In this document: positions 51,404 to 54,376 of the stretch, in pieces
Layout: each line of letters opens with the position of its first letter
Numbering within the stretch: position 1 is the first letter of the stretch
DNA from: Polynucleobacter sp. MG-Unter2-18
GTDB lineage: Bacteria; Pseudomonadota; Gammaproteobacteria; Burkholderiales; Burkholderiaceae
DNA: 64,000 bases
Assembly (NCBI RefSeq): GCF_018687675.1
Contig: NZ_CP061302.1
Coordinates: 1,376,192-1,440,191, forward strand
Direction: 5' to 3'
The notes under the pieces: generated by a model
Told to the model about the DNA's origin: nothing
Seen by the model: the letters and a program-made list of their open reading frames with translations, nothing else
Databases searched by the model: none
Position numbers and translations under genes: made by a program

Positions 51404-51518
51404 TTATTAGCCTTTCGGCCGATAGCATTAACACTGTATTCCCAAAATACTGAATATTGTTTACATTTATAAGAAGAACAATTGGTTCTTTAGATTACTC
51501 ATTTTTGGAGTGGCTCAT

Positions 51519-51785
51519 ATGAAGAAAATCATTATCGTTTTAAGTGTTGCATTTAGTTTTGCAATTCCGTCCGTTACTTTTGCAGATCAGGCAGCTTGCG
51601 AGGCAAAGGCAGTTAGCAAAGAAGGTAAGCCGCTCTATGGCGCTGCTAAAGACGCATCTATTAAGAAATGTATGGGTGATGCCAAACCCAATGATTGCGA
51701 AGCTAAAGCAGTCAGTAAGGATGGCAAGCCGCTTTATGGGGCTGCTAAAGCTGCATCTATTAAGAAGTGTGAAGGCGGAAACTGA
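51519..51785 (+). CDS. Small exported protein with duplicated PsiF-like Cys repeat
   Basis: The 88-residue protein has a signal peptide (M-K-K-I-I-I, cleavage after T-F-A near residue 22) and two near-identical units of about 25 residues, C27-C51 and C60-C84, each shaped C-E-A-K-A-V-S-K ... G-K-P-L-Y-G-A-A-K ... S-I-K-K-C. The repeat period is 33 residues (99 bases). This resembles PsiF repeats of proteobacterial periplasmic proteins; function is unknown. GGAG lies 8 bases before the ATG at 51519, which I prefer to GTG at 51510. A strong terminator follows. Confidence 0.8.
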   Translation: MKKIIIVLSVAFSFAIPSVTFADQAACEAKAVSKEGKPLYGAAKDASIKKCMGDAKPNDCEAKAVSKDGKPLYGAAKAASIKKCEGGN

Positions 51786-51880: not shown

Positions 51881-54376
51881 TTAGAACGGTTCGTACCCAC
51901 CAGAGGAGTATCCAACTGATCCCATCGCCAAGTTATCAAACTTGGTATATGGACCCTGCCAGCTTAAACGCACAGTACCAATTGGTCCATTACGTTGCTT
52001 ACCAATAATGATCTCCGCCATACCTTTATCTTGGGTTGTATCTGGGTGATACACCTCATCACGATAGATGAACATAATTAAGTCAGCGTCTTGTTCGATC
52101 GCACCCGACTCACGCAAGTCAGACATGATTGGGCGCTTGTTAGGTCGTTGCTCAAGGCCACGGTTTAACTGTGACAAGGCAACTACTGGGCACTGTAACT
52201 CTTTTGCAAGTGATTTAAGAGAGCGTGAGATTTCTGAAATCTCTGTCGCGCGGTTCTCAGAACCAGAGCCACTCATCAACTGCAAGTAATCAATTACAAC
52301 AAGGCCAAGTGTTCCGCCAAAGTTACGAGCAATACGTCGTGCACGCGCACGTAACTCTAAACTGGAAAGAGCGCCAGTCTCATCAATCAAAATTTGGGTA
52401 TTGCTCAAGCGGGCAATGGCATCCGTAACACGTGGCCACTCATCATCTTGAAGCTTACCGGTACGCATACGGCCTTGGTCAACGCGCCCCACTGAACCCA
52501 GTAAACGGGCAGCCAATTGCTCACCCGACATCTCCATTGAGAAAACAACGACTGGCAAGCCTTCGGCCAACGCGACATTCTCAGCGATATTGAGTGCAAA
52601 TGCAGTGTTATGAGTCACCACGTATTCATTGGTGACGTAGGTTCTATCTGGATGGCTAACTGAGATGCATTGGGCCGCAGCAACTCTAGATGGCTCAATG
52701 CTCTTAAATGAAAGTCTGCGCTGTCGATCCCAGCTCGCTCTGAGCCTTTCTTTCTTTTCAGGCAAAGTAAATGCTTGAAATCCAGGGCCAAAACTCATAT
52801 TCAAAACATAAGCTAAACGACCCTGCTTTTTTTCACCCTTGTAGGTGTAGCTAGACTGTTTTTCTGCGATTGAACAAAAGCCGCCCAATGATCTAGCCAA
52901 AGTGGCAACGTCTTCTGATAATTGCTTGCTTGCAGTACAAAAACGAATGGAGCCCCACTTCTCAATCCAACCATCAGTGTCCATCAAGCCCTGAAATAGG
53001 GCGAGACGGGCAGTCTTGTTGGCTTCAAGATAAGTAGCGGGGATGTATTTATCAAAACTTCTACAACCCAAAACACCGAGATCTTGTAAAGCAGAGCGGA
53101 AATAATTTGTTGGCACGGACTGACGTTGGCCATTAGCAGCAATTCTAGCTTTAGAAACCAATCTCCAGTCATATGCGTTGGCATGAACTAACTCCATCTC
53201 ATAGCCAGCTAGAGCATTCATGCGTTCAATAAGCTCGGGAGACTTAGTCGAGAACATCACGCAACCGTGAGATAAAGCCAAAGTCCCATCACCGAGTAAT
53301 GCGCCCAAAACCCATGGGTTAATTGGTAATATATTTGAATGACCAAAATCACCTGAAACAGGATCTATCCACAGACGATTCTTGTATCGAACACAAGAAA
53401 GCATTTCTATTAAACGCGCAGTATTAATGACTTTGGGCGCATCCCAATCGCGATACATGACGCGCCAAAGATGCTCATCGCAGCACTCAGCTTCACGACC
53501 ATCTGAGAAAGTGACTCTATAAATCTGTTTAATGCCTTGCGGATAGATGCCAGTCACCATAGAGTGCTGACCATCCACAGAGGCTAGGCGATCGCCAAAA
53601 CGTAAATCGCCCATCAACTTCCATCCATCAACTGTTTTTACTTTAGCATCCAGTGGTTGCGCTTTACCCATGGACGGTCTACCAGCAACTATCACCAAGT
53701 CGCCTTTTTGCAGACCACTAGTTTGCTTATCTAAATCAATAAATCCAGTTGCAATACCAGTGATGTCGCTACCACCTTGACGGTTATATAACTCATCAAT
53801 GCGCGCAACAACGGTTTTCAGTAGTGGTTCGATCTCGAGGTAATCGGCTTTACGACTACCCTCTTCACCAATTTGTAGAATGCGTGACTCTGCTTCATCT
53901 AAGAGCGTTCTAACAGAACGACCCTCCGGAACAAATGCAGAGTTAACGATGTTGTCAGATACTTCAATTAGGCGACGCAGAATGCTGCGATCACGAACAA
54001 TGTCGGCATAGCCTTTGATGTTCGCTGCACTAGGTGTGCTCTGCGCCAATGAATTGAGGTAATCAATACCAACTAAGTCACCACCCTGCTCAGACTTAAC
54101 AGCCTCATGAACAGTAATGACGTCAGCAGGATGATTGTCGCCAACTAAACGCTGAATGACCTTATAGATCAGAGCATGTTCAGGACGATAGAAATCTTTA
54201 TCAGTTAACACCCCACCCAGGCGATCCCAGGCTGTGTTGTCAATCAGTAGACCGCCGAGCAAAGATTGCTCGGCTTCTACAGAATGCGGCGGTACTTTTA
54301 AAGCCTGCAAGGCTGGATCCCCAGAACCCATCATGCCAGGATTTGACATAAGGGGGCGTGAGCGGGATTCAGCCAT
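51881..54376 (-). CDS. dnaB: Replicative DNA helicase DnaB with an in-frame intein
   Basis: The 831-codon gene codes for a 479-residue DnaB helicase interrupted by a 352-residue intein (residues 239-590). The host part has the N-terminal DnaB domain (about 28-130), Walker A G-R-P-S-M-G-K | T-A split by the intein, Walker B V-V-I-D-Y-L-Q-L (about 693-700) and the conserved E-S-G-A-I-E-Q-D-A-D. Only the spliced protein has an intact ATP site, so DnaB, essential for replication, must depend on splicing. It is the last gene after rplI, 24 bases apart. There is no frameshift; both extein parts are in the same frame. Confidence 0.97.
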   Translation of the reverse strand: MAESRSRPLMSNPGMMGSGDPALQALKVPPHSVEAEQSLLGGLLIDNTAWDRLGGVLTDKDFYRPEHALIYKVIQRLVGDNHPADVITVHEAVKSEQGGDLVGIDYLNSLAQSTPSAANIKGYADIVRDRSILRRLIEVSDNIVNSAFVPEGRSVRTLLDEAESRILQIGEEGSRKADYLEIEPLLKTVVARIDELYNRQGGSDITGIATGFIDLDKQTSGLQKGDLVIVAGRPSMGKAQPLDAKVKTVDGWKLMGDLRFGDRLASVDGQHSMVTGIYPQGIKQIYRVTFSDGREAECCDEHLWRVMYRDWDAPKVINTARLIEMLSCVRYKNRLWIDPVSGDFGHSNILPINPWVLGALLGDGTLALSHGCVMFSTKSPELIERMNALAGYEMELVHANAYDWRLVSKARIAANGQRQSVPTNYFRSALQDLGVLGCRSFDKYIPATYLEANKTARLALFQGLMDTDGWIEKWGSIRFCTASKQLSEDVATLARSLGGFCSIAEKQSSYTYKGEKKQGRLAYVLNMSFGPGFQAFTLPEKKERLRASWDRQRRLSFKSIEPSRVAAAQCISVSHPDRTYVTNEYVVTHNTAFALNIAENVALAEGLPVVVFSMEMSGEQLAARLLGSVGRVDQGRMRTGKLQDDEWPRVTDAIARLSNTQILIDETGALSSLELRARARRIARNFGGTLGLVVIDYLQLMSGSGSENRATEISEISRSLKSLAKELQCPVVALSQLNRGLEQRPNKRPIMSDLRESGAIEQDADLIMFIYRDEVYHPDTTQDKGMAEIIIGKQRNGPIGTVRLSWQGPYTKFDNLAMGSVGYSSGGYEPF
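52607..53662 (-). mobile_element. Class 3-type intein with LAGLIDADG homing endonuclease, in DnaB P-loop
   Basis: DnaB residues 239-590 are the intein (352 residues). It begins with Ala (A-Q-P-L-D-A-K-V) instead of Cys/Ser and ends V-V-T-H-N, followed by Thr as the first C-extein residue, restoring the loop G-K-T. A Trp in block B (D-E-H-L-W, intein residue 66) and a Cys in block F (Q-C-I-S-V, intein residue 332) with that Thr make the W-C-T set of class 3 inteins, where the block F Cys attacks first. Two LAGLIDADG motifs (L-G-A-L-L-G-D-G-T-L, about intein residue 119, and L-F-Q-G-L-M-D-T-D-G-W, about 222) show a homing endonuclease. Confidence 0.93.

Follow-up and report, generated by a model that had tools for sequence, protein, structure and literature searches.

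What is a 352-residue insert doing inside the Walker A loop of DnaB, the replicative DNA helicase, in the freshwater bacterium Polynucleobacter sp. MG-Unter2-18, and can the host make a working helicase in spite of it? The question is raised by a stretch of 64,000 nucleotides of contig NZ_CP061302.1 (positions 1,376,192 to 1,440,191 of the forward strand), referred to throughout as the window, in which the dnaB gene is interrupted in this way. Judged by its sequence, the insert is a genuine class 3 intein. The reading preferred here, to which we give a probability of roughly 0.92, is that the insert is bifunctional: a class 3 intein that would splice itself out and, through its LAGLIDADG endonuclease, home as set out below, at the Walker A codons of the only dnaB gene found in the genome.

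The dnaB frame is open across all 831 codons, and residues 239-590 form an in-frame insert of 352 amino acids (aa) between GRPSMGK238 and T591AFALN, in the Walker A loop. The insert starts with Ala and ends with Thr-His-Asn; Trp66, one of its nine Trp residues, stands two residues after block B His64, and Cys332, one of its eight Cys residues, lies within the block F motif QCISV. An initial annotation of this DNA had given the coordinates, the start at Ala239, the length of 352 aa, the Walker A site, Trp66, Cys332 and the Thr at +1, all of which are borne out by reading of the open reading frame (ORF). The features, in window coordinates, are as follows.

51881..54376, minus strand: dnaB, replicative DNA helicase with intein, 831 aa (Pfam DnaB and DnaB_C; NCBIfam TIGR00665 above cutoff).
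53663..54376, minus strand: N-extein, 238 aa, C-terminal end GRPSMGK (ORF reading).
52607..53662, minus strand: class 3 intein, 352 aa, Ala1 to Asn352 (ORF reading, alignments, structure comparison).
53480..53485, minus strand: Cys60-Cys61, conserved pair of block B, Cys61 being the TxxH/DxxH position (alignments).
53465..53473, minus strand: block B His64-Leu65-Trp66, the Trp being a member of the Trp-Cys-Thr (WCT) triad (alignments).
52763..53329, minus strand: LAGLIDADG homing endonuclease domain, about residues 112-300 (limits by eye), acidic motif residues Asp125 and Asp228 (Pfam, structure matches).
52667..52669, minus strand: Cys332, block F position 4, predicted first nucleophile (alignments).
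52607..52615, minus strand: Thr350-His351-Asn352, block G, with triad Thr, penultimate His and terminal Asn (alignments).
52604..52606, minus strand: Thr591, the +1 residue, Walker A Thr once DnaB is spliced (ORF reading).
51881..52606, minus strand: C-extein including the stop codon (ORF reading).

Class 3 inteins are defined by Trp at B:12, Cys at F:4 and Thr at G:5 (PMC5222942). These residues are Trp66, Cys332 and Thr350 in the present intein. The Trp and Cys proposed in the initial annotation stand, and its choice of the +1 Thr591 as triad Thr does not, block G position 5 being Thr350; as both Thr residues are present, the class 3 assignment is kept. Intein position 1 is Ala, and so none of Cys, Ser and Thr, and the +1 position is Thr591, one of the two residues (Ser, Thr) of class 3 inteins there. 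Homologous inteins of full length were aligned (276 in all: 116 of 120 listed proteins, 86 of 108 genome loci and 74 of 80 viral loci; the sets overlap, and the 276 are not independent sequences). Cys332, Thr350, His351 and Asn352 are each found in 276/276, Ala1 in 257/276 and Trp66 in 267/276. The other nine have Phe at the triad position, all of them among the 74 viral loci (e.g. L053, L073; several near-copies), and retain Cys F:4 and Thr G:5. Such conservation of the class 3 motif in the alignment is far beyond chance. Among the close relatives, P0032 (Cys start) and P0030, P0061 and P0068 (Ser start) carry complete class 3 residues; these are possible class 1/class 3 hybrids.

Compared with solved structures at the sequence level, the N-terminal part of the intein matches gp41-1 (6riz, expectation value (E) 6e-8) and the class 3 DnaB intein of Mycobacterium smegmatis (6bs8, E 2e-4). 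In the 6bs8 alignment Trp66 is paired with Trp67 and His64 with His65 (block B significant); Cys332 falls over the block F Cys of 6bs8 only in a second, sub-threshold piece covering blocks F/G. With that qualification for block F, the Trp and Cys are placed inside blocks B and F, as had been assumed, and the motif is invariant in the relatives apart from the nine Phe. From the chemistry of the family, Cys332 would attack the Lys238-Ala1 bond, the N-extein would then be passed to Thr591, and Asn352 would cyclise; the product would be an uninterrupted GRPSMGKT loop. Since DnaB should be devoid of ATPase activity as long as this loop is interrupted, splicing must take place in living cells.

The predicted structure of the intein (predicted local distance difference test 91, predicted template modelling score 0.90) finds its best whole-length matches in the endonuclease-bearing inteins TliVMA and PI-SceI (Foldseek), and its Hint part matches 6bs8 with E 3e-5, root-mean-square deviation 1.5 A and 31% identity in 83 columns. 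Within the Hint splicing domain lies an endonuclease domain, left unmentioned in the initial annotation, which is recognised as Pfam LAGLIDADG_3 and folds like PI-SceI, TliVMA and I-DmoI. The acidic residues of LAGLIDADG motifs are catalytic; both of them, Asp125 and Asp228, are invariant in 59/59 genus copies. The median ratio of nonsynonymous to synonymous substitution rates (dN/dS) in the genus is 0.053 for the endonuclease; the splicing parts have medians of 0.035 and 0.045, and the exteins of occupied and empty loci medians of 0.026 and 0.029, respectively, the intein medians being drawn from 457-507 of 1653 pairs after exclusion of the majority, which are saturated at synonymous sites. 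By these measures the endonuclease is intact and under selection, and it is probably active.

Empty sites, which the initial annotation had proposed to look for in other Polynucleobacter dnaB genes, were found. An N-extein match is present in at least 169 genomes of the genus, from which 108 dnaB loci were fetched; 59 of these loci are occupied by the intein and the other 49 are empty, at the same codon position throughout, and all 59 intein frames are open. Loci left aside were mostly in fragmented assemblies and the most distant rows, so that 59/108 is no occupancy rate (70/186, given below, is). The insertion site is always GRPSMGK/T (the slash marks the point of insertion), with Ser in place of Thr in one empty locus. 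The endonuclease would cut empty dnaB alleles at the conserved GK/T codons, the intein would be copied in, and homing would keep it circulating among Polynucleobacter.

A third state of the site was found in a divergent lineage (genomes G021, G042, G147, G161), in which both endonuclease Asp residues are lost in 4/4 fetched members and Ala1, CC..HLW, Cys332 and THN are retained in 4/4. Its most different members are 42-45% identical in the endonuclease region, 73-79% in the N-terminal splicing part and 84% in the C-terminal one; in five of the six pairs, the ratio of nonsynonymous to synonymous differences per site (pN/pS) is 0.33-0.58 in the endonuclease versus 0.17-0.34 and 0.08-0.15 in the splicing parts. 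As empty, active-looking and decayed sites are all found in this genus-level group, the three stages coexist. The same four loci (L298, L299, L302, L303) have a second intein in DnaB, a mini-intein of 140-144 aa with a Cys start, located before SGAI.

How the intein came to be scattered was examined with trees. Occupancy requires 32 changes on the extein tree versus 35.9 (standard deviation 2.8, minimum 27) with shuffled labels, so that it is hardly clustered on the dnaB tree. The extein tree is rejected by the intein alignment (log-likelihood difference 1042, approximately unbiased (AU) test p 3.5e-64; reverse difference 737). The divergent locus G066 was excluded from the AU test, dN/dS, the half-conflict control and the empty-pair gradient comparison described below, and was retained in the parsimony count, the conservation count and the first upstream comparison. 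Taken together, the alignments indicate frequent recombination of dnaB in the genus, with the intein involved to at least the same extent; the intein is probably mobile within the genus, and the conflict of intein and extein trees is supporting evidence only.

Several points weigh against the preferred reading. It rests on sequence and model data, and its dN/dS medians on the minority of pairs given above. The N- and C-extein halves also conflict with each other (log-likelihood differences 522 and 342 in occupied loci, 316 and 270 in empty ones, for which 43/49 loci were used and six distant empty genomes excluded), as do the two halves of the intein (431 and 602); because the extein halves conflict too, general recombination explains part of the tree conflict. 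The N-extein alignment fits the intein tree (464) no worse than the C-extein tree (522), and the C-extein alignment fits the intein tree somewhat worse (406) than the N-extein tree (342). In the decayed lineage, the closest pair (L302-L303) is without relaxation (endonuclease pN/pS 0.066, with very few changes). Finally, an apparent co-conversion footprint (G093/G092: upstream ribosomal genes 0.25% different, dnaB third positions 25%) was dropped, as the gradient is no different in pairs of empty loci and is probably just a consequence of stronger conservation upstream; these upstream comparisons covered 107/108 loci, one with a short upstream part being omitted.

The patchiness might accordingly be ascribed to vertical inheritance with frequent precise loss, or to plain allele replacement, instead of homing. 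General recombination of dnaB could indeed swap occupied and empty alleles either way without an endonuclease, but we regard this explanation as unlikely: the endonuclease has both Asp residues in 59/59 genus copies and is under selection, which would be hard to maintain without recurrent homing, and conflict per 100 sites is greater between the intein alignment and the extein trees (107 and 115) than between the extein halves (72 and 45).

The initial annotation held class 3 inteins to be rare, and the present one to be a sign of transfer. Rarity does not fit the genus, in which 70/186 genomes have a full-length copy at 75-100% identity, and by 2020 the tally of class 3 inteins stood at 1701, 82.5% of them with LAGLIDADG motifs (PMC7891396). 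Intein matches occur in 76/186 Polynucleobacter genomes (70 full-length, 4 endonuclease-decayed, 1 in a phage terminase-like protein, 1 partial); the closest named genome copy is that of Polynucleobacter hallstattensis, 99% over the intein, in a comparison that may exclude the window's own genome. The terminase-like match (L300, genome G052) is an ORF of 974 aa, named by eye, with a class 3-type intein at GK/S and a block B Asp (DEEHLW). Of 299 genomes drawn evenly from the family, 32, in 5/25 genera, have a match; 17 of these 32 are Polynucleobacter genomes, and in one the match is weak and partial. The intein region is matched by 4010/7996 scored candidate protein clusters, of which 120 were listed and inspected. 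Related DnaB inteins occur in Limnobacter, Paraburkholderia, Burkholderia, Trinickia, Roseateles, Malikia, Dyella and others. The intein thus belongs to a large and already recognised kind, common and patchy in the genus; in the open-licence literature, no paper was found on inteins or homing endonucleases in Polynucleobacter. As for the proposed transfer, the trees uphold exchange among members of the genus and a deep link with the inteins of phages, with the caveat of general recombination; a lone arrival does not fit the copies in many Burkholderiales.

The deep link is seen in a wider sample, found by patterns from this intein and therefore no survey, from which a tree of 104 inteins was built (55/74 viral inteins, 40 genome inteins, near-identical ones removed, 6/59 genus copies and 3 odd loci); it is a quick tree with several long branches and without biochemically proven class 3 inteins. 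The 104 non-redundant relatives fall into 18 extein families (BLAST linkage), and on the tree host family requires 22 changes for these 18 families. Their junctions are GK/T (98), GK/S (3), GR/T (2) and AK/T (1). Among the representatives scanned, several of which have no host name above the curated Pfam cut-off, nine P-loop host kinds are named: DnaB, SNF2 helicase, PhoH, ClpX, Lon, RecA, AAA_25, AAA_5 and type III restriction helicase. The viral-contig genes L012, L041 and L060, in which Pfam recognises ClpX, Lon protease and RecA domains, have class 3 inteins at GK/T, and these hosts seem unusual. The 46 sampled bacterial DnaB inteins form one clade (Shimodaira-Hasegawa-like approximate likelihood ratio test 100), placed beside phage DEAD-like helicase inteins with weak support (88, below star level); two viral-contig DnaB inteins are placed outside it. 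Insertion between the Walker A Lys and Thr has been described as classic for P-loops, and exchange of class 3 inteins between phages and their hosts has already been proposed (PMC5050341); the present sample adds to this.

Could the intein be kept as a switch on replication, as the initial annotation suggested for Cys redox or metal? Two blocks on DnaBi1 of M. smegmatis have been published: a disulfide between Cys48 and Cys118 (PMC6195587), and zinc bound at Cys118, Val119 and Tyr128 (PMC7360933). Cys332 and Tyr342 align with the zinc side chains Cys118 and Tyr128. The position of Cys48 is Ile47 here, and Ile or Val in 46/46 sampled bacterial DnaB inteins; the DnaBi1-type disulfide partner is not present, and a redox switch of the M. 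smegmatis type was rejected.

There is, however, a different cysteine pair in block B. Class 3 inteins generally are without the Thr of TxxH, and Asp62 of the M. smegmatis intein is near Ala1 (PMC6195587); a Cys60-Cys61 pair lies here beside the catalytic His, and Cys61 replaces Asp62, which makes an active-site thiol pair plausible. Cys61 is Cys in 115/116 listed proteins, 86/86 genome loci and 55/74 viral loci (Gly, Thr, Ser or Asp in the other 19), and Cys60 in 104/116 (Ala 11, Val 1), 86/86 and 46/74, respectively. Both are present in 59/59 genus copies, 4/4 endonuclease-decayed copies and 46/46 bacterial DnaB copies of the tree, and in 46 (Cys60) and 43 (Cys61) of its 58 other inteins. 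In these alignments Cys61 is stricter than Cys60 overall, and Cys60 appears dispensable in some relatives. No statement on the block B Cys of class 3 inteins was found in the literature text passages, although figure logos may show one. Cys60-Cys61 is thus a specific candidate switch, and its conservation may equally serve splicing chemistry alone.

It is nevertheless improbable that the intein is retained because it switches replication in response to redox state or zinc, sensed by Cys61 (beside the scissile bond, judging by homology) together with Cys332. Such a switch would agree with the conservation of Cys61 among listed proteins, genome loci and genus copies, including those with a decayed endonuclease, with its place near Ala1 and with the match of the zinc ligands. 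Against it stand the absence of the demonstrated partner Cys48, the laxity of Cys60, the viral inteins that differ at Cys61, and the many close relatives without the intein, from which it follows that the host does not need such a switch; moreover, the conservation may reflect splicing chemistry only, all changes of Cys48 in M. smegmatis having abolished splicing (PMC6195587). Replication regulation by the intein remains speculative. A broader idea, doubtful and a little further from expectation, is that the DnaB-clade inteins of Burkholderiales would use the Cys61 and Cys332 thiol pair to stop splicing, and hence the start of replication, under oxidative or zinc stress, and that the clade would have come from phages because its endonuclease reads Walker A codons, so that close relatives settle at GK/T in unrelated P-loop ATPases.

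Two rivals to the splicing part of the preferred reading fare worse. Splicing of class 2 type, in which Thr591 would attack the N-terminal junction directly and Cys332 would not be the first nucleophile, is in keeping with an Ala start that makes a class 1 start impossible, but is very unlikely in view of the Cys F:4 shared by all 276 relatives and the near-universal Trp, and because a change of Cys F:4 abolished splicing in three class 3 inteins (PMC5222942). A dead intein, with dnaB non-functional or supplied by another copy, has a precedent in a class 3-like pseudogene (PMC3196547) but is the least credible of all, as every catalytic residue is intact, purifying selection in the genus is strong, and the host genome, a single contig of 2.0 Mb, holds only one DnaB match.

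With the preferred reading of a splicing and homing class 3 intein in place, its nearest known counterparts are the DnaB inteins of M. smegmatis (DnaBi1, DnaB-b site, 6bs8), M. leprae and M. chimaera, which share the host protein, a P-loop site before Ser/Thr, the WCT triad and the block F Cys nucleophile. DnaBi1 also has Ala1 in common with the Polynucleobacter intein; it differs in its +1 Ser, block B Asp62 and disulfide partner Cys48 (Thr, Cys61 and Ile47 in Polynucleobacter), and sequence similarity was detected in the splicing blocks only. The Polynucleobacter intein has an endonuclease, which the mini-inteins of M. smegmatis (DnaBi1) and M. leprae lack. The DnaB inteins of Burkholderia, Paraburkholderia, Trinickia, Ramlibacter, Polaromonas, Limnobacter and other bacteria (Ramlibacter and Polaromonas seen only in the protein cluster listing) have the same site and the CC..HLW block B; DnaB loci outside the genus are 46-72% identical to the Polynucleobacter intein. 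In several listed proteins, 1190-1263 aa long, the intein-splicing domain PF14890 (Pfam) is found as well, which points to a second intein. Phage class 3 inteins (SNF2 helicase, PhoH, terminase, other P-loop proteins) have in common the class 3 residues, the LAGLIDADG endonuclease and the GK/T or GK/S junction, and differ in their exteins, in being 31-41% identical (viral contigs kept) and in a more variable block B position 61. The gp41-1 intein (6riz, 6qaz), naturally split, gives the best sequence match among solved structures for the N-terminal splicing part; unlike the Polynucleobacter intein, it is of class 1, without endonuclease, and has Phe at the Trp position in its natural form.

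Around the gene, the ORFs upstream of dnaB resemble rpsF-priB-rpsR-rplI (naming by eye). A small ORF adjoining dnaB (window 51510-51785, plus strand) has two near-identical copies of EAKAVSKxGKPLYGAAKxASIKKC and a start that is signal-peptide-like by eye.

For intein specialists the case is an ordinary one, and the genus is a clean natural experiment: one free-living group with many named strains has empty sites, sites with an intact endonuclease and sites with a decayed one at the same codon of an essential gene. With these three states at one codon, two debated questions become testable: whether Walker A inteins are purely selfish or may regulate replication, and what role the conserved block B cysteines have in this clade.

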